The position numbers and the translations under genes are program-made. A stretch of DNA of 42,333 bases from a virus, in IMG/VR virus record IMGVR_UViG_3300002334_000047, positions 1 to 42,333 of that record. One strand, written 5' to 3'. Position 1 is the first letter of the stretch; every line of letters starts with the position of its first letter. This document shows positions 2,915 to 42,333 of this stretch, piece by piece. Under the pieces are notes generated by a model that saw only the letters and a list, made by a program, of their open reading frames with translations, was not told the origin of the DNA and ran no database searches.

Positions 2915-3259
2915 ATGATTAATGTAATAATTTGGGTTTCGGTAAGCGCGGGAATAGTTGCTGATAATTGGTATGGTCTTGAATGGGCTGGGAACATATC
3001 AATTTTTGTAGTGTGGTTTTTCGCGGTTTTTAGTCTTCTGGTTTTATTAATGCCTGATGAAAAGTTCCTTGAGGCAATAAAGGATGAAGGAACAATAAAA
3101 AAGTATTTGTTTAGAGCTTTTTACTTTATCGCTGTAAATGTGATGCTTGCGGCGGGTTGGTTTGTCACTGCTACGGCGTCTGTCATAGGATTTGTTTTGG
3201 TTTATGCAAAAACCGCTTCTGCTAAAGAAAAGCTATCTGAAAAGTCAAAGGAGGCATAA
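2915..3259 (+). CDS. Small multi-pass membrane protein
   Basis: A 114-residue protein after CGGAGAG. Hydrophobic stretches at about residues 1-17, 24-48 and 66-100 suggest three or four membrane helices; the tail is charged (KEKLSEKSKEA). As the first gene of the operator-controlled rightward operon, it could alter the host envelope early in infection or exclude other phages, which is inference. No family recognised. Its stop is coupled to the next start (TAATG). Confidence 0.7.
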   Translation: MINVIIWVSVSAGIVADNWYGLEWAGNISIFVVWFFAVFSLLVLLMPDEKFLEAIKDEGTIKKYLFRAFYFIAVNVMLAAGWFVTATASVIGFVLVYAKTASAKEKLSEKSKEA

Positions 3260-7469: not shown

Positions 7470-7487
7470 TTCTGTCGCTAAGTCGTC

Positions 7488-7509
7488 TTAAAACTATCTA
7501 TAAATAGAT
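7488..7509 (+). promoter_or_regulatory. Repeated motif TTAAAACTATCNATAAAT, copy 1
   Basis: The 18-base motif at 7488-7505 recurs at 15253-15270 with one difference. This copy also contains the palindrome ATCTAT-AA-ATAGAT (7496-7509). Both copies sit in short intergenic gaps before new transcription units. It may be a shared promoter or activator site; a TATAAT also occurs at 7553-7558. Confidence 0.45.
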
Positions 7510-7571
7510 CAATTTAATATTTCACATAACGCAGAATCAGAACTATATTTAATATAATAGAGGGTAATCAC

Positions 7572-7724
7572 ATGGACTTCAAAAGCGCAATAGCTAAATG
7601 GTTTAATGATTTCATGGATGGCATGATATTTGGCTCCATACCAGAGCGCAAAGTGTGTGATTGCGACGAAATGGAGTGTTTCTGCGATGATCTGCATAAA
7701 TTGGAAATGCGGGGCCACGTATGA
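7572..7724 (+). CDS. Small acidic Cys-rich protein
   Basis: A 50-residue ORF after GAGGG. The N-terminal half is helical and hydrophobic (WFNDFMDGMIFGSIP); the C-terminal half carries four Cys (VCDCDEMECFCDDLH), likely a metal site. It overlaps the next ORF by four bases (ATGA). Function unknown. Confidence 0.55.
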   Translation: MDFKSAIAKWFNDFMDGMIFGSIPERKVCDCDEMECFCDDLHKLEMRGHV

Positions 7725-7819
7725 AGCAAGACACTGAAATGCACACTGCAGCCAAGATGATAGTAGGGGTGGTGTTTATCGCGTTAGGGTCTATACTGAT
7801 TGTATTGATTTCACGCTGA
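7721..7819 (+). CDS. Tiny single-pass membrane protein
   Basis: A 32-residue ORF starting in an ATGA overlap with the preceding gene. After a polar dozen residues there is one clear membrane helix (MIVGVVFIALGSILIVLI) and a short basic end. Coupling and the clean helix argue for a real microprotein. It is the last gene before a strong terminator. Confidence 0.5.
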   Translation: MKQDTEMHTAAKMIVGVVFIALGSILIVLISR

Positions 7820-7885
7820 CAACCGACAAGGATTCATCAGAAAACCCGGTTACTTCGGAGGTGATCCCTACTTGTGACCCGCTCG

Positions 7886-7912
7886 CCCAGCTCCCAGGTT
7901 GGGTATTTTTTT
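7886..7912 (+). terminator. Strong rho-independent terminator before the virion genes
   Basis: CCCAGCT (7886-7892) pairs with GGTTGGG (7897-7903; two G-U) around CCCA, followed by TATTTTTTT. This is the clearest terminator in the window. It ends the accessory cassettes and separates them from the virion operon starting at 7952. Confidence 0.85.
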
Positions 7913-7951
7913 GCCTGCGTGTTATGATTCCCTCATCATTCGGGGATTTTT

Positions 7952-35948: not shown

Positions 35949-35994
35949 TATGTGTGCTACAGTTCATCTATCACTAACAAAGAGGAATTACACG

Positions 35995-36381
35995 ATGTTT
36001 GGAACTAAGCAGCTAACTAAAGAACGCGACGAGTTATTAAAAGAAGTTAATGAACTTAAAACTGATTTAGGTGAGCGTGATCGTTTACGTGATCAAGTCA
36101 GAAAGTTAAAGGATGAAGTTGTTGGCCTCAAGTCTCAGAAGAAAATAGAGACTGAGGATATTAAGCACATGGTGCGAATGAAGGAGGAGCGCTCAGAAGT
36201 TGAGAACGACAAAAAGCGCTTGGAGATGGAGCGTGAAAAGGATTCAGCAATTGCTGCGGTAAAGGATGAGTACAGAGACAAGATGGAGGACAGGTTAGAG
36301 CTTGAAGTTGGCAATATGAAAGAGATGTACGGTCAGATCCTAGCAAGGCTCCCTGATATTAGTGCGAAGGTTAAGATTTAA
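35995..36381 (+). CDS. Coiled-coil protein
   Basis: A 128-residue protein from ATG 35995 after AGAGGAA. Residues about 5-105 are a continuous charged heptad-like coil (KERDELLKEVNELKTDLGER, then EENDKK-type segments), ending in a short helix (MYGQILARLP). It resembles small phage coiled-coil scaffolds. First gene of the rightward early operon; the stop overlaps the next start (TAATG). Confidence 0.75.
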   Translation: MFGTKQLTKERDELLKEVNELKTDLGERDRLRDQVRKLKDEVVGLKSQKKIETEDIKHMVRMKEERSEVENDKKRLEMEREKDSAIAAVKDEYRDKMEDRLELEVGNMKEMYGQILARLPDISAKVKI

Positions 36382-36608
36382 TGGGCCTTATTGAATTTGG
36401 ATCAGCGCTAGGCCAAATCGGCGGTCAGAATAATTTTGCAAGGCTTGGGCAGGCATCGGCAGGACAACAAGGGCACGGGATGCGTCTTTCTGATTGCTTT
36501 ATGGACGGCCCCTCTAAAGGCTTAGTAATAAAAGCAAATCATCCGAAATCTTTTATTGAAGAGCTACAAGAAGAAACTAACGAATGGTTGGGGGAAGAAT
36601 GGACTTAA
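36381..36608 (+). CDS. Hypothetical small protein
   Basis: A 75-residue protein starting in TAATG. Gly/Gln-rich start (GSALGQIGGQNNFARLGQAS) and an acidic end (EELQEETNEWLGEEW). Unrecognised; overlaps the next gene by ten bases. Confidence 0.6.
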   Translation: MGLIEFGSALGQIGGQNNFARLGQASAGQQGHGMRLSDCFMDGPSKGLVIKANHPKSFIEELQEETNEWLGEEWT

Positions 36609-36766
36609 GGCAGTACGTGGCAGAGCAGTACAAAATGAACGTGGCAGAGTTTGCGCGTAGAGAAGGGTATGACTATAAATCGGCGCTTAGATACGTTGAG
36701 AACGGTGCTAAATGGATCGACGGCGATGTTTACATTAAAACCGCAGCTAACCGAGATAAATCATGA
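36599..36766 (+). CDS. Small HTH-like protein
   Basis: A 55-residue protein from ATG 36599, preceded by GGGGGAAG. YKMNVAEFARREGYDYKSAL then RYVENGAKWIDGDVYI reads as a small helix-turn-helix (MerR/excisionase-like): helix, turn, recognition helix and wing. It may be a DNA-binding early regulator. It resembles the next gene in layout and overlaps it by four bases. Confidence 0.55.
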   Translation: MDLRQYVAEQYKMNVAEFARREGYDYKSALRYVENGAKWIDGDVYIKTAANRDKS

Positions 36767-36957
36767 GACTAATCGACCACATACAATCAGAACACAATAG
36801 CGACCGCACAGCCTTTGCAAGACACCTTACAAGCGAGTTGCGGATTGATGGCATATTGGTAGCCCCAAAGCACTTTACGCGCATGGACGTGGATAGATGG
36901 ATAGGGAAGGGCTATCAGTGGATCAAGGGTAAGGTTGATTCTGGTGAAAAGAAATGA
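36763..36957 (+). CDS. Small HTH-like protein, paralogue of the preceding one
   Basis: A 64-residue protein coupled by ATGA. NSDRTAFARHLTSELRIDGI, then DRWIGKGYQWIKGKV, has the same order as the preceding gene (helix with F-A-R, then GxxWI.G.V), suggesting that they are diverged paralogues of one DNA-binding fold. Function unknown. Confidence 0.55.
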   Translation: MRLIDHIQSEHNSDRTAFARHLTSELRIDGILVAPKHFTRMDVDRWIGKGYQWIKGKVDSGEKK

Positions 36958-37166
36958 TATTTGATTTTAGAACAATCAGGATAGAGAAGAGGTATTTCCG
37001 GCGTGGCAATGGTCGTGTTAGCGAGTTTAGGAGTTGCAAAATAAACCTTGATGGAACGGAGGAATGTAATGAATGGATTGAGAGTGGTGAGCTAACAAAC
37101 TATTACGAGATATATGAACTTCCTGATTCTAAATGGGCTAGGTTTAAAAAATGGTGGACACGATGA
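36954..37166 (+). CDS. Hypothetical small basic protein
   Basis: A 70-residue protein coupled by ATGA. The N-terminal half is rich in Arg and aromatic residues and looks like beta strands (IFDFRTIRIEKRYFRRGNGR); the end has WARFKKWW. Unrecognised. Overlaps the lipoprotein gene by four bases. Confidence 0.6.
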   Translation: MIFDFRTIRIEKRYFRRGNGRVSEFRSCKINLDGTEECNEWIESGELTNYYEIYELPDSKWARFKKWWTR

Positions 37167-37279
37167 AAATCCTAATCCTATGCCTCTTACTAACATCATG
37201 TACATTCGTATGCGGTGGCAGGTCAGGCGGCGGTAATATCGGTTATCAGTGTGAGCATCAAGGGGTAGATTATGAGTGA
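37163..37279 (+). CDS. Small lipoprotein
   Basis: A 38-residue ORF starting in an ATGA overlap. MKILILCLLLTSC is a lipoprotein signal with lipobox LLTSC, so signal peptidase II would leave a mature peptide of about 26 residues (CTFVCGGRSGGGNIGYQCEH). It overlaps the next gene by eight bases. In other phages small early lipoproteins block superinfection (T5 Llp is an example) or serve as outer-membrane spanins; the early location here favours the former. Confidence 0.6.
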   Translation: MKILILCLLLTSCTFVCGGRSGGGNIGYQCEHQGVDYE

Positions 37280-37601
37280 CGAGAAAATAACAGCGGAAGC
37301 GGAAGGTATTAGCTCTATTTCAATGGGTGAAAACGTAGGTTGGATTACAGGGCCGCATGATGCAGTTAAAGCAGTGCAGAAACTTATCATTGATGGCGAA
37401 GGATACAGGGCGCGCCTAGAAATATCGCCTGATCACAATTACGACGGAATATATTGCAGAAACGCAACGATTGTAATTTTGAAAAATGAAAACGCAGACC
37501 TCAAAGCAGAGCTACTTATAGCTGAAAACGCCCTAGCCAACGCAATAGCCAAGCTACAAGGTAGTAGACAGCATCGGACAGAGGTGAAGAATGATAGGTG
37601 A
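37272..37601 (+). CDS. Hypothetical early protein with C-terminal coil
   Basis: A 109-residue protein. The N-terminal half (MGENVGWITGPHDAVKAVQK) is mixed; residues 70-100 form a coiled coil (ILKNENADLKAELLIAENAL). Typical of small phage early proteins; function unknown. It overlaps both neighbours, by 8 and 11 bases. Confidence 0.65.
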   Translation: MSDEKITAEAEGISSISMGENVGWITGPHDAVKAVQKLIIDGEGYRARLEISPDHNYDGIYCRNATIVILKNENADLKAELLIAENALANAIAKLQGSRQHRTEVKNDR

Positions 37602-37773
37602 TTTCATAGGATTAATAATTATGTTCGGTTTGGGGTTTCTTGCTGGAGCGTTCACTGTGATAAACGATAACAAGACCATAAATGAAGCTTATACAGCCAT
37701 AGCCGAATGCGAGTCAACCCTACCCCGCGATCAAACATGTAAATACGTTATAACAGCAGAGGTGGCGGAATGA
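37591..37773 (+). CDS. Small single-pass membrane protein
   Basis: A 60-residue protein with an N-terminal membrane helix (IGLIIMFGLGFLAGAFTVI) and a periplasmic-type tail holding two Cys (CESTLPRDQTCKY) that could form a disulfide. This is a common small-phage-protein layout. Coupled to the next gene by ATGA. Confidence 0.65.
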   Translation: MIGDFIGLIIMFGLGFLAGAFTVINDNKTINEAYTAIAECESTLPRDQTCKYVITAEVAE

Positions 37774-37961
37774 CCTTCACAGTAGAAGAAAGAGAGGTAG
37801 CTATAAATCATTGCACTAACCCTAACGAGCAGTGTTGTACTTGCAAGCACGCAAAGCCTAAAGATTACATGGTTTATGAATGTCAAAAATGGTGCGCTGA
37901 TGTTGAATATGACGAGGTTTGCCCAAAGTTTGAAGTAAAGTTACAGGAGAGTAACTCATGA
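37770..37961 (+). CDS. Cys-rich small protein
   Basis: A 63-residue protein with seven Cys: HCTNPNEQCCTCKHAKPKD, YECQKWC, EVCPKF. Probably a compact zinc-bound or disulfide-stabilised fold. Unrecognised; coupled on both sides by ATGA overlaps. Confidence 0.65.
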   Translation: MTFTVEEREVAINHCTNPNEQCCTCKHAKPKDYMVYECQKWCADVEYDEVCPKFEVKLQESNS

Positions 37962-38218
37962 ATTACATTTTAAAAATAGATGAATGTTTTTTAAAAGCAA
38001 AATTAGAAGGGTTTAAATTATTCGAAATAAGGGAAAATGATCGCGGGTATCAGAAGGGGGATACTGTTACATATTCTGAGTACCCTATCGCAGAACAAGA
38101 AATAAAACACACGTATGAAATCACATATGTAACAGCATTTCGCCAAATTAAAAACTACGTTGTTTTTGGTGAGCGTCACTTAGAAAGCAAGCAAGGTTCG
38201 ATTACATTGCCAATTTAA
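37958..38218 (+). CDS. DUF3850 / ASCH-like protein
   Basis: An 86-residue protein. ILKIDECFLKAKLEGFKLFE, then IRENDRGYQKGDTVTYSEYP and ITYV, matches DUF3850: the E-I-R-x-N-D-R-x-[FY]-Q-x-G-D core is unmistakable. This family belongs to the ASCH/PUA-like superfamily, expected to bind RNA or modified nucleotides. Its presence a kilobase from the large structured RNA is noted but no link is shown. Confidence 0.8.
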   Translation: MNYILKIDECFLKAKLEGFKLFEIRENDRGYQKGDTVTYSEYPIAEQEIKHTYEITYVTAFRQIKNYVVFGERHLESKQGSITLPI

Positions 38219-38236
38219 AGATACAGGAGAGTGATT

Positions 38237-38509
38237 GTGAAGATAGCTAAACTAAGATTGGCTGGTGACATATTAGGGCGCGAAGGTCTTGCTTTACGAG
38301 TATTAGAAATAGCTAAATCTATCGTTGATGACGGCAGCTACAAGCGTGCAATAAAAGGCGCTGGGGAGCTGGAAGTAATAGCTAGAGCCTGTACGTTCGA
38401 TGATTACTGGGAAGGAAAAATGCTCGACGGCAAACGACATCAAGAATTCAAAATGCAATATGTTATCGACACAACCCCAGTCACAGAATCTAACGAAGGT
38501 GGTAAGTGA
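38237..38509 (+). CDS. Hypothetical protein (GTG start)
   Basis: A 90-residue protein; GTG 38237 has GGAG seven bases upstream and is preferred over GTG 38231. Helical (GREGLALRVLEIAKSIVDDG) then acidic. Unrecognised. The stop overlaps the next start (TGATG). Confidence 0.6.
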   Translation: MKIAKLRLAGDILGREGLALRVLEIAKSIVDDGSYKRAIKGAGELEVIARACTFDDYWEGKMLDGKRHQEFKMQYVIDTTPVTESNEGGK

Positions 38510-38823
38510 TGAGTGACTGGAAAGACCCTTACGAAGAAATGCCAGGTACTGAGCGCGTTGTATTAATACACATTAGAGGCTTGGATGCTCATGGTGTTGT
38601 TTCGGCTTGGTGGTGCGTTGAGGATGAGCCTAATTGGGTGGCTCTTGATGACGCTGTTAATTATGAGCTTGATGAAGTCGATTTCTGGCGTGAAATGATT
38701 GACCTGCCAGAAGGAAGCAAGGCTGATGTAGATATAGACAAACCAAGGATCAAGAAGCCTTATTATCTAGACTGTAAAACTGAAAAAGGTGTAACCAGAA
38801 TATACCTATTGGCTGATCTATAA
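38509..38823 (+). CDS. DUF551-like protein
   Basis: A 104-residue protein from ATG 38509. SDWKDPYEEMPGTERVVLIH, then VVSAWWCVEDEPNWVALDD, follows the DUF551 pattern: W-x-x-P-x-E-x-x-P, V-L, then W and W. Common in phage early regions; role unknown. Confidence 0.6.
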   Translation: MSDWKDPYEEMPGTERVVLIHIRGLDAHGVVSAWWCVEDEPNWVALDDAVNYELDEVDFWREMIDLPEGSKADVDIDKPRIKKPYYLDCKTEKGVTRIYLLADL

Positions 38824-38845
38824 CCACTACCGGGAGTGAATGATT

Positions 38846-39055
38846 ATGAGATCACACGAATTAGCCAAGGAGCTGTTAGAAGCCCCAGACGGCAAAGTAG
38901 TTTGCAGTGTTGATATTTCAACAGGTCAGGACGATGCGGGCGACAGGTGCTTTGGTGAGGCTTTCGAGGGTATCAATAGCCTGCCTACAGACATAGGTTT
39001 TGGTTCTGACGAAGTGGTCCTGTTATTCAGTGGAAATACAAACTTAGACATTTAA
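38846..39055 (+). CDS. Hypothetical small protein
   Basis: A 69-residue protein; ATG 38846 is at a better distance from CGGGAG than ATG 38840. KVVCSVDISTGQDDAGDRCF suggests a small beta-rich fold. The leader (ACTACCG...ATGATTATGA) recurs before the next two genes, pointing to local duplication. Confidence 0.6.
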   Translation: MRSHELAKELLEAPDGKVVCSVDISTGQDDAGDRCFGEAFEGINSLPTDIGFGSDEVVLLFSGNTNLDI

Positions 39056-39076
39056 CACTACCGAAGAGAGATGATT

Positions 39077-39250
39077 ATGACAGGTGAAATGGAACTAATC
39101 CTACAGCTATGCGAAAAGTTAGGGTTTGAAGTGGAAAAGAAAGCTACGCGTGCAAGTATTGAAAATAGAGGCCTAGTAATGGCTATGGGTTCGGCGTTCG
39201 ATCCTGGACTGGAGTACACGTACACTTTATCAAACAAAGAGAAGGGATGA
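39077..39250 (+). CDS. Hypothetical small protein
   Basis: A 57-residue ORF with leader ACTACCGAAGAGAG shared with its neighbours. MELILQLCEKLGFEVEKKAT, then beta strands, is a small alpha/beta pattern. Good ribosome site and position in a tight operon support coding. Confidence 0.55.
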   Translation: MTGEMELILQLCEKLGFEVEKKATRASIENRGLVMAMGSAFDPGLEYTYTLSNKEKG

Positions 39251-39252
39251 TT

Positions 39253-39585
39253 ATGATTGAACGATATGATTTAGAACGAAAAGAGGAATGGGCAAAGTGG
39301 ACAAAGCGAATTCCTGCTATCAAGTTCAAAGAAACCTGGGAGGTTAAAATAATCCCTCCATTTTCAGGAGCTATGGCGCGGTTTTGGGTAGATGAGGGTG
39401 ATGCACATGTCTCTGTTTATTTGGACGTTAACGACAGCTTAGGGTGTGTAGGGGAGCCATATTGGGAGATATATCCCTATGACGGTGACACTTGCCGAGT
39501 GTTAATGAGTGAGCCAGAAGAGTTAGTGCAAAGAATAACCGAAGCATTAAAAAGCCCTCTTGCGGATTCTACCGAAGAGGGCTAA
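39253..39585 (+). CDS. Hypothetical protein upstream of the giant RNA
   Basis: A 110-residue acidic protein; ATG 39253 has GAAGGG six bases upstream (ATG 39247 is the alternative). Trp-rich, with beta-like segments (FKETWEVKIIPPFSGAMARF). Its last codons overlap a strong hairpin (39553-39583). Unrecognised. Confidence 0.6.
   Translation: MIERYDLERKEEWAKWTKRIPAIKFKETWEVKIIPPFSGAMARFWVDEGDAHVSVYLDVNDSLGCVGEPYWEIYPYDGDTCRVLMSEPEELVQRITEALKSPLADSTEEG
39553..39583. terminator. Hairpin at the end of the early gene, before the giant RNA
   Basis: AGCCCTCTT (39553-39561) pairs perfectly with AAGAGGGCT (39575-39583), with an inner CGG/CCG. On the minus strand it is followed by TTTTAATG, a proper terminator; on the plus strand no U-tract follows. 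It may stop antisense transcription into the upstream gene, or be a processing hairpin. Confidence 0.6.
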
Positions 39586-39830
39586 GATTAATTATACCGA
39601 AGGTTTACGAGACCCGACGTAGTTTAAAGATGAAGAGGACAACCACGACGTTTACGGCATACCCTCATTATAGTTATCTACTCAAAACTTGCAATCCTTC
39701 AATTGGGACGATTCTTTATGGATTTCCCATATGAGACTACATAAATGGCTGTACTTAATAGACTTGACCGAAGATATGCAGGATATGACGATTGAATGCT
39801 TATGTTAGCGAAGGTTTAGAGGGCACGTTT

Positions 39831-39891
39831 CTGCACAGGATCAGGGTTCGATTCCCATTAGCTAGCGGTGAATTGTGCGGTAGTTGTTAGC
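39831..39891 (+). other. T-loop pseudoknot subdomain of the giant RNA
   Basis: CTGCACA (39831-39837) pairs with TGTGCGG (39874-39880). GCTAGC (39861-39866), inside that loop, pairs with GTTAGC (39886-39891), outside it, giving an H-type pseudoknot. A GGG-TTCGATT-CCC T-loop hairpin (39844-39856) lies within. An upstream GTTAGC (39804-39809) could compete. Confidence 0.5.
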
Positions 39892-39937
39892 TCGGATTGG
39901 TTCCAACCTTCAGAGTACAGCCTTTTATGTAGTTTCA

Positions 39938-40048
39938 GAGACAGTATTGATCATGGCGTTATACAGGTTAGTTTAACTGGTAAAACGCTCATTCGTGAGA
40001 AGTTCGGGGTTCAAGTCCCTTGCCTAGCGTCATGTTCAATACTGTTTC
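39938..40048 (+). other. tRNA-like domain embedded in the giant RNA
   Basis: A 21-position helix (P5) leads to a tRNA-shaped tip. Elements: AGGU/GCCU (39965-39968/40022-40025); UA; D-arm GUUU (39971-39974), loop AACUGGUA, AAAC (39983-39986); then CUCA-UUCG-UGAG (39988-39999); five-base variable region; T-arm GGGG-UUCAAGU-CCC (40006-40019). D-loop GG and T-loop UUC-A-A are canonical, so the elbow should form. The anticodon arm lacks a seven-base loop and there is no free 3' CCA end, so it cannot decode. Confidence 0.75.
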
Positions 40049-40446
40049 ACCGGAATGGTTATGCAGCTTTCTCAACCGGGAGTCTGCATTGAAGAGAGTA
40101 AAACCCTATATACCCTGAAACATCGGGCGGGGCGCTAGTAGAAATCTGGGAACCAAGTCTAGTTTTCTTGCTTGCAAGGCTTAGCACTCTCTTCAATGCA
40201 GATTTGAACAATCGAAAAGCCAACTTCACAAACGAACATTAACGCAGATAATTATCAATTAGAGGAATTGGTAAGCCGAAGTCTAGGCAACCGTGGCCCC
40301 GTACTGACCTAGCGTCCACCTTGAGCATCTTAGGATGTGAGTGAGAATCTTGTAACGCTTGACCAGATATAAAGCTTAGAGAAATGAGCTGGTTAACTGG
40401 AGTATCAAGGAAAGAGTATGGGGCTCCTATGTCTGAAGGAGTAATT

Positions 40447-40602
40447 ATGAAAGATTTTAAGAAGATATCCACAGAGTTAATTGTATTAAGCACTGATCAA
40501 CAATTGAGAGCATTGAAGATCAAAATCAACACAGAATTGGAAAGACGAATAACCGAGGCCGAAAAGAAGTATTACAAAGGCGGCTATCCAATAATTAAAT
40601 AA
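40447..40602 (+). CDS. Small helical protein after the giant RNA
   Basis: A 51-residue protein; ATG 40447 follows GAAGGAG with ideal spacing. The longer frame from 40384 runs through helices P8 and P10 of the RNA and is rejected. Charged helix (ISTELIVLSTDQQLRALKIK, then ELERRITEAEKKYY). Unknown; the direct junction makes it a candidate RNA-associated gene. Confidence 0.65.
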   Translation: MKDFKKISTELIVLSTDQQLRALKIKINTELERRITEAEKKYYKGGYPIIK

Positions 40603-40611
40603 AGGTGATAT

Positions 40612-40866
40612 ATGCCAATAATTCCATTAGATAGAGATTACGAAGGTGGAGCGGAGGAGGTTAGAGCAAAAAGAAATGCTTTAGCTAGACTCTCAAAGAG
40701 ATGCCCAGTAATTAGGCAGGCTAACATAGCTTTAGACGGCATAGAGGACGGTAAGTGTTTCGACGCTGAGTACGCCATAGATATGATAATAGCGTCTCTT
40801 AGGGGTATGCCAGAGGCCACAGCAACGATTGATCTAATGGATAGAATACTTAAATTAACTAAATAG
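40612..40866 (+). CDS. Hypothetical protein
   Basis: An 84-residue protein after AAAGGTGATAT. Helical with an acidic centre (DGKCFDAEYAIDMIIASLRG). No family recognised; part of the small-gene string ending at the genome junction. Confidence 0.65.
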   Translation: MPIIPLDRDYEGGAEEVRAKRNALARLSKRCPVIRQANIALDGIEDGKCFDAEYAIDMIIASLRGMPEATATIDLMDRILKLTK

Positions 40867-40874
40867 GTAACGAT

Positions 40875-41063
40875 ATGAACAAGGTAATCAAAGTTTTAAT
40901 GGAAGAAATCAAATCACAACACCAAATGCGGCTTGAGGAGGATGAATGTGGGGGCTCTGAGATAGATGAGAGCTTCGACATACTAAAGGCCGGGATGATT
41001 GATACGCTGCTAGAACAGGGTTCAAAAGACTTCAAATTACTTGATGATATTCAGAACTTTTAA
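40875..41063 (+). CDS. Hypothetical small acidic protein
   Basis: A 62-residue protein after TAGGTAACGAT. Acidic, helical (VLMEEIKSQHQMRLEEDECG, then LLEQGSKDFKLLDD). Unknown. Confidence 0.6.
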   Translation: MNKVIKVLMEEIKSQHQMRLEEDECGGSEIDESFDILKAGMIDTLLEQGSKDFKLLDDIQNF

Positions 41064-41086
41064 CCATCTCAACTAGGAGAGTAACA

Positions 41087-41263
41087 ATGGAACTAGTAAT
41101 ACAAATTCAACAAACGGCAATAGTGGTGTTAGTTGTAATATTTTTAGTAGCAAGATTTACTAAGGAGGATTTTCTAGAGAAGGATCACGGGTTTTTAGAC
41201 ATAATATTTTGGTCATTAGTAACGATAATCATCGGCACGGCAATGCTAAGAATCTGGGGATAA
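41087..41263 (+). CDS. Small two-pass membrane protein
   Basis: A 58-residue ORF after TAGGAGAG. Two hydrophobic helices (QTAIVVLVVIFLVARF and IIFWSLVTIIIGTAML) are separated by a charged loop (TKEDFLEKDHG). The strong ribosome site supports it. Unknown role; early membrane protein. Confidence 0.65.
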   Translation: MELVIQIQQTAIVVLVVIFLVARFTKEDFLEKDHGFLDIIFWSLVTIIIGTAMLRIWG

Positions 41264-41303
41264 CCTGTTAACAACTTGTATATAACTAACAAGAGGTACT
41301 GGT

Positions 41304-41567
41304 ATGAGTAAGTTTGACGAAGCATTTTCAGAGCCTATGAGTATGAGCAATAATTCATACGTGTTGAGTGGTGCATTCAGTCGCGAAGAGGCAGCAAAAG
41401 CTTTCGGTGAATACATTGACTACAACGTAAGACCAGAGGCGCTAGAACAGGATCGTGTGCGGTTTGGATACCCTCCAGAGGATGTTGCAGACGGCGAAGA
41501 TTTAGGAGCGTGCTGGTATACGGGTGCGAGCGGCAAAGGATCTAAAGAAGTTTGGGTTTTAGGTTAA
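41304..41567 (+). CDS. Hypothetical acidic protein
   Basis: An 87-residue protein with an AAGAGG ribosome site in the repeated leader. FSREEAAKAFGEYIDYNVRP, then YPPEDVADGEDLGACWYTGA, suggests a small helical protein with a Gly-rich end. Unrecognised. Confidence 0.65.
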   Translation: MSKFDEAFSEPMSMSNNSYVLSGAFSREEAAKAFGEYIDYNVRPEALEQDRVRFGYPPEDVADGEDLGACWYTGASGKGSKEVWVLG

Positions 41568-41593
41568 TTTCACATATAACAAGAGGTAATGGT

Positions 41594-41797
41594 ATGAGTA
41601 AGGAGTTTATTGTAGGTAACGGCGTTAGAATTACAGAGTCAGAGGATATGGGGATTTTCATCCATTTTGAAAGTGTTAGCGGAAATCACACAGGCCAGTT
41701 TTTAGGAAATACAAATGATACGCCAGGGCACAAATGGGCGGTAGAGCTATTAGAGGATCAGCCAGAGCGTGATGATGTTAATGAGTTATTTGATTAA
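41594..41797 (+). CDS. Hypothetical small protein
   Basis: A 67-residue protein; ATG 41594 is fixed by the repeated leader (the frame extends upstream without a ribosome site). Beta-rich (KEFIVGNGVRITESEDMGIF) then acidic helix (AVELLEDQPERDDVNELFD). Unknown. Confidence 0.65.
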   Translation: MSKEFIVGNGVRITESEDMGIFIHFESVSGNHTGQFLGNTNDTPGHKWAVELLEDQPERDDVNELFD

Positions 41798-41823
41798 CCC
41801 CACATATAACAAGAGGTACGACA

Positions 41824-42102
41824 ATGAAATTAGTACACTTAAAAGGTAATGATATTGAGTTGGATGGCGATATTGTTTCATCAGCTAGATATCAAGGACA
41901 TGCATTGATTGCCACAGAAAAATCCATTTATATGATTGTAAAGCAGTTTTCACATGACCCGGTTAAGGCAGTTAAGCTGGCTACACCAGAGTTTAAGGTG
42001 AACGCACCAATCCATTCAATAACTGTTTCTTGTGATGTGGTGCTTATTTGTGCGGGTCGTGAAGTAACAATTCACATTCTAACAGCGCAAGGAGAAGGGT
42101 AA
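41824..42102 (+). CDS. Hypothetical beta-rich protein
   Basis: A 92-residue protein behind the third repeated leader. Strands such as KLVHLKGNDIELDGDIVSSA, ALIATEKSIYMIV and SITVSCDVVLICAGREVTIH suggest a small beta barrel or propeller blade. No family recognised. The stop overlaps the next start (TAATG). Confidence 0.6.
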   Translation: MKLVHLKGNDIELDGDIVSSARYQGHALIATEKSIYMIVKQFSHDPVKAVKLATPEFKVNAPIHSITVSCDVVLICAGREVTIHILTAQGEG

Positions 42103-42242
42103 TGGGTGAGCTAAGCTTTTACTTGGGAATGCTTACAATGTGGGTTATTTGGGTGATGGCTATACTTTTCGACTATGTGGTTGACAGGTATTATCAGCAT
42201 AAGTCATTTAAAGAATGCATATCAGATACAATTAAAGAATAG
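42102..42242 (+). CDS. Small membrane protein at the genome junction
   Basis: A 46-residue ORF starting in TAATG, with GGAGAAGGG upstream. One hydrophobic segment (LGMLTMWVIWVMAILFDYVV) and a charged tail (YYQHKSFKEC). On the circle it is followed 12 bases later by the gene at 21-269. Confidence 0.6.
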   Translation: MGELSFYLGMLTMWVIWVMAILFDYVVDRYYQHKSFKECISDTIKE

Positions 42243-42333
42243 GAGCCGCCAAAAATGAGTAATACAACGATGAGTGACGTGTTCGACCTTCCTTTGGCCG
42301 CAGATGAAAATATGTTATACCAAAACGATAACG
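42235..42333. repeat. Terminal direct repeat, copy 2
   Basis: Identical to bases 1-99. It contains the end of the small membrane-protein gene and the first 79 bases (42255-42333) of a second copy of the gene at 21-269, truncated by the window end. Not a separate gene. Confidence 0.95.

Follow-up and report, generated by a model that had tools for sequence, protein, structure and literature searches.

The window analysed here is the entire 42,333-nt IMG/VR virus record IMGVR_UViG_3300002334_000047, which belongs to a phage of the lambda/P22 type known from environmental DNA alone. Its P22-like character, already proposed in a first-pass annotation of the letters, is borne out by a portal (phrog_156), a coat protein (phrog_283), a head closure protein (phrog_578, Hc3), a scaffold and a terminase as markers of this type, together with O-like and P-like replication proteins and NinG. 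RecT, SSB and a DNA-ejection protein are also encoded, and ARAGORN detected no tRNA gene in the record. The nearest relative of the portal (72% identity) is found on a 14.5-kb contig (NVUT01000043.1) of a metagenome-assembled genome (MAG), which shares 66–68% DNA identity over the structural genes. This MAG is filed as Flavobacterium, and the contig may be a misbinned phage from another host. Within IMG/VR, the relatives of the portal come from uncultivated contigs and show 43–65% identity, and among the isolates listed the identity reaches only about 30–35%. A rightward operon (35950–42333) exits the window on its right end and its content resumes on the left (1–1637, with the O-like and P-like genes at 740–1637), and the presence of operon content at both ends suggests that the genome is permuted or circular.

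Inside this operon, which is apparently early, as had been claimed, a long stretch is devoid of supported genes. It is bounded by an upstream ORF that stops at 39585, a relative of which is present in Alteromonas phage PB15, and by a gene beginning with ATG at 40447 that is preceded by a good Shine-Dalgarno sequence (AAGGAG, 40436–40441). The intervening 861 nt (39586–40446, + strand) harbour the proposed structured RNA, whose provisional bounds are set by these ORF limits. That no other long gene-free stretch exists in the 42 kb agrees with the initial observation, since the other apparent gap (7470–7951) is occupied by two small ORFs. A 74-aa ORF with a GTG start (39868–40092) shows neither a Shine-Dalgarno motif in its sequence nor a PHROG match, and we have rejected protein coding of the region as it contains no ORF with support. 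At its 3' end, the segment CUCCU (40424–40428), as read from the sequence, is capable of pairing with AGGAG (40437–40441) in the Shine-Dalgarno sequence of the following gene (40424–40441, + strand). At its 5' edge, a left-facing intrinsic terminator is predicted on the – strand (39553–39583), which is the clearest leftward terminator of the record, and which is located about 110 nt beyond a promoter-like TTGCAA-16-TATAAT with a perfect TATAAT (39694–39667, – strand). Judging from these signals, the synthesis of a – strand antisense RNA of about 115 nt (39694–39546), complementary to the first 75 or so nucleotides of the large RNA, is possible.

The most prominent features of the region are three very long helices, P2 (39732–39756/39913–39937), P3 (39938–39961/40025–40048) and P4 (40080–40099/40186–40205), in which 24 of 25, 23 of 24 and all 20 positions are paired, including two, three and two G-U pairs, respectively. 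As described in the first-pass annotation, exactly one U-U mismatch is found in P2 and one in P3. With scores of 49, 46 and 44, the three helices surpass the next best found anywhere in the 42 kb (35.5) and they also take the top three ranks of the record upon correction for composition. Dinucleotide shuffling of the region (1000 replicates) gave best helices that scored 25.9 on average and 43 at most, and no helix scored above 41 when the whole window was shuffled 20 times. The predicted folding energy of the whole region on the + strand amounts to –256.7 kcal/mol, compared to a mean of –223.8 kcal/mol in shuffles (z = –4.2), whereas z is –2.0 for the – strand. When folded in 281 windows of 300 nt, the one at 39901 is second lowest (z = –4.2) and those at 39451 and 40051 are low as well, while 39601 and 40201 give ordinary values, an uneven signal that fits a structure of long-range helices. 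Departures from Watson-Crick pairing in the three helices, as read on the + strand, consist of seven G-U pairs and two U-U mismatches, A-C mismatches being absent. On the – strand, the seven G-U pairs would be A-C mismatches, and the probability of finding all seven on one side in a strand-neutral situation is 1/128. This bias, the only evolutionary evidence that a single sequence can offer, favours an RNA transcribed from the + strand over a palindrome in DNA.

The predicted fold on the + strand starts with a 5' domain (39599–39700) closed by the helix Pa (39599–39611/39688–39700) with inner helices at 39616–39622/39678–39683 and 39630–39638/39663–39671 (pair probabilities 0.93–0.99), which is followed by a short hairpin (39704–39729). 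The subsequent domains, defined by helix scan and pair probabilities, comprise P2 (39732–39937), which encloses a weak tRNA-like element termed TLS-A, P3 (39938–40048), which is capped by a second such element, TLS-B, and P4 (40080–40205), which contains inner hairpins. A 3' domain (40295–40425) is closed by the 11 pairs of P8 (40295–40305/40415–40425, pair probability 0.94). Since P3 starts at the base right after P2, both helices can stack. Their outer sequences are identical, both beginning with GAGAC and ending with GUUUC, and these common ends could permit strand exchange within or between molecules.

The initial description had also noted T-loops and a resemblance to tRNA, and both are recovered on the + strand. 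TLS-B (39965–40026) matches the tRNA model RF00005 with 22.8 bits, below the gathering cut-off of 29 bits. It contains a D-arm (GUUU-AACUGGUA-AAAC) and a T-arm (GGGG-UUCAAGU-CCCU), and a hairpin with a UUCG tetraloop (CUCA-UUCG-UGAG) replaces the anticodon arm. It thus resembles tRNAs and the tRNA-like domain of tmRNA in its D-arm with GG and its T-loop UUCAAGU, and it shares with the latter the absence of a working anticodon. However, it scores under the tRNA cut-off, carries a tetraloop instead of a 7-nt anticodon loop, and has neither a CCA end nor a free acceptor end, the acceptor continuing into the 23-pair helix P3. As the cloverleaf is placed 6 kcal/mol above the minimum free energy by the nearest-neighbour model, which prefers another interior, its assignment is based on the tRNA sequence signature and not on energy. 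In TLS-A (39803–39870), a second T-arm (GGGUUCGAUUCCC, 39844–39856) can be read from the sequence and gives a match to the tmRNA model that is only local (E = 0.067), the remainder of the element being uncertain. Phage attachment sites often duplicate the 3' end of a tRNA, as is the case in P22. We judge an attP site to be unlikely at this locus, where the T-arms do not run into an acceptor or CCA end, and the ORF subset that was scanned contained no integrase.

With its long gene-free stretch and extensive secondary structure beyond chance, the locus conforms to the description of large ornate phage RNAs, and a divergent member of GOLLD or ROOL, or else a new class, had been put forward at the outset. 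The assignment to GOLLD or ROOL was not sustained. A cmscan search at E ≤ 10 with the complete set of 4227 Rfam families returned no GOLLD, ROOL, group I or II intron, HEARO or other large bacterial RNA and no riboswitch or T-box in the region. Neither the GOLLD model RF02032 (which describes its conserved 3' region with 416 positions and a cut-off of 150 bits) nor the ROOL model RF03087 (574 positions, cut-off 99.1 bits) matched the region or the whole record at this threshold, and in the positive control, which was run for ROOL alone, the ROOL RNA of pMP118 was found with 130.4 bits. GOLLD RNAs, which sometimes hold tRNAs within a linker region, have been reported from pull-downs to bind ribosomes, and a studied member forms a 14-mer cage (PMC12286853). 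The RNA described here is likewise phage-borne and exceeds 800 nt, but its tRNA-like parts are degenerate and lack an anticodon, and they reside in a record without tRNA genes. ROOL RNAs, also large and ornate, occur in phages and mobile elements and often lie near tRNAs (PMC12286853), but they are shorter and do not share the three helices of 20–24 pairs. An ORF-less transcript of about 800 nt in phage ICP1 (PMC7567579) similarly originates from a gene-free stretch and falls outside Rfam, but it contains neither long helices nor the T-loop motif and shows no convincing sequence similarity. As far as sequence comparison can tell, the RNA is an orphan that is not detectably GOLLD or ROOL.

Searches for homologues led to the same picture. 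In blastn searches with loose E-values, no similar sequence was found in GenBank phages and plasmids, nor was the RNA found in the related MAG that includes contig NVUT01000043.1, and an exact-match search of IMG/VR with a 23-mer across the end of the 5' arm of P2 retrieved no homologue. Among 71 IMG/VR relatives collected by their portal or upstream gene, many of them fragments in which absence carries little weight, the RNA was not detected, the best blastn matches covering 17–20 nt with E-values of 0.045–0.19, and the route via the downstream gene yielded no relatives. No counterpart emerged when the loci of the relatives were scanned for gaps, for clusters of long helices and for T-loops enclosed in such helices, and candidate stretches in three contigs (G001, L037 and L177) bear no resemblance to the RNA. 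Searches of IMG/VR with tRNA-like patterns returned ordinary tRNAs and a few tRNA-like genes with capped anticodons but no homologue, relaxed ARAGORN output was noise, and literature searches provided no description of such an element.

Elements of related build are found in other phages. In the fetched phage DNA, 5 out of 843 distinct T-loop motifs, the window counted, are enclosed by long helices with a score of at least 36, compared to none in shuffles. The strong cases with helices of 19–23 positions include a tRNA-Asn gene in L086 (7006–7120) and further elements in L086 (8445–8565), L259 (2352–2509) and L261 (4200–4312), and a weaker one is located in L148 (700–798). Read from their sequences, the second L086 element and those in L259 and L261 seem to lack an ordinary anticodon arm and to retain the D- and T-arms, and ARAGORN names no normal anticodon for that in L261. 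These elements are similar to the present RNA in build, a likeness of architecture and not necessarily of descent. The L259 and L261 phages carry portals that are 35% identical to the present portal. The elements in L259, L261, L086 (8445–8565) and L148, with acceptor helices of 17–23 pairs, come from unrelated phages, two with P22-like portals, while two of the elements lie in large tRNA arrays.

Taken together, the + strand of the region very probably encodes a functional, structured and non-coding RNA with a length of about 0.85 kb, since the three best helices exceed those of shuffles, the fold is more pronounced on the + than on the – strand, G-U pairs are found without A-C mismatches, the tRNA-like match and the second T-arm are both located on the + strand, and no ORF has support. 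The large multi-arm RNA of the first-pass annotation is thus upheld. In this RNA, one of the very long helices carries tRNA-like sequence at its tip and another contains it in its interior. The RNA would be made early from the rightward operon and be abundant and stable, with P2 and P3 stacked end to end as rigid pillars bearing tRNA-like folds. These would retain the elbow formed by D- and T-loops, while the UUCG cap in place of the anticodon and the extension of the acceptor end into a helix of 23 pairs would prevent the element from being charged or from decoding. As a scaffold or decoy, the RNA might in this way offer tRNA-elbow surfaces to the tRNA-handling machinery of the host, such as the ribosome, RNase P or enzymes that modify the T-arm. 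We propose this elbow mechanism tentatively, counting the T-arm elements on helices of 17–23 pairs in other phages in its favour and the less stable cloverleaf of TLS-B and the weakness of TLS-A against it, and the combination of a structured + strand RNA with a scaffold or decoy function, although our best explanation, falls somewhat short of an even chance. More speculatively, the RNA might represent, as its first member, a novel class of giant phage RNAs, in which anticodon-less tRNA-like modules on pillars of 23–24 pairs mediate assembly or capture of the host translation machinery, and whose module recurs singly in other phages.

The main rival of a scaffold or decoy is an RNA-only assembly, where rigid pillars and exchangeable helix ends would join copies into a homo-oligomer or cage resembling those of GOLLD and ROOL but of a different class. 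The size of the RNA, its phage setting, its tRNA-like content and the interchangeable ends of P2 and P3 are in line with such a role, as is the fact that GOLLD and ROOL both form nanocages though mutually unrelated (PMC12286853). We nevertheless consider it unlikely in light of the missing family match and because no homologues were found that would define conserved contact loops, and the ICP1 RNA, which is of similar size but without long helices, illustrates that size alone is no guide. Still less probable is a very large cis-acting leader, which would sequester the Shine-Dalgarno sequence of the gene at 40447 to control its translation, with the remaining RNA serving as a sensor. The CUCCU segment at the 3' margin of P8 would in this case pair with the AGGAG in partial competition with P8, but P8 and this hairpin have only two pairs in common, the size is far above that of known leaders and Rfam provides no riboswitch or T-box match. 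We regard it as quite improbable that the region is a functionless relic of a phage tRNA cluster, with tRNA genes that have decayed and palindromes left behind. Genes for tRNAs are known from some P22-like phages (PMC8022706), tRNA-like elements with long acceptor helices occur in phage tRNA arrays, and two T-arm-like segments and one D-arm are present, but decay would be expected to leave A-C besides G-U changes, whereas three helices of 20–24 pairs are still intact and a perfect UUCG hairpin occupies the place of the anticodon. A signal for replication, recombination or packaging built of palindromes in DNA, where the inverted repeats are equally visible, is very improbable given the G-U pairs without A-C, the folding bias and the tRNA-like content of the + strand.

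Where studied, giant phage RNAs are abundant and form cages, and none is known to have an assigned function. An unrelated giant RNA with recognisable tRNA-like parts in a small lambda/P22-type phage would hint at the host contacts of such RNAs, and the small size and familiar layout of this phage would make deletion and pull-down experiments practical, given a host or a close isolate.

Our searches have also revealed other features of phage contigs. A 1-kb stretch without long ORFs (L039, 10344–11365) in a phage contig of 46.6 kb shows no Rfam match at gathering cut-offs and contains a strong-looking promoter near its end. Genes in L078 (9378–9473, also in L151 and L211) and L110 (9008–9105, also in L157) are tRNA-like with full acceptor, D- and T-arms, the anticodon loop being replaced by a UUCG tetraloop. 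Finally, a compact tmRNA-like tRNA domain on the – strand of L072 (about 3078–3150, also in L091 and L117) ends with CCA and carries a 6-pair UUCG hairpin at the position where an anticodon arm or the body of tmRNA would be located.
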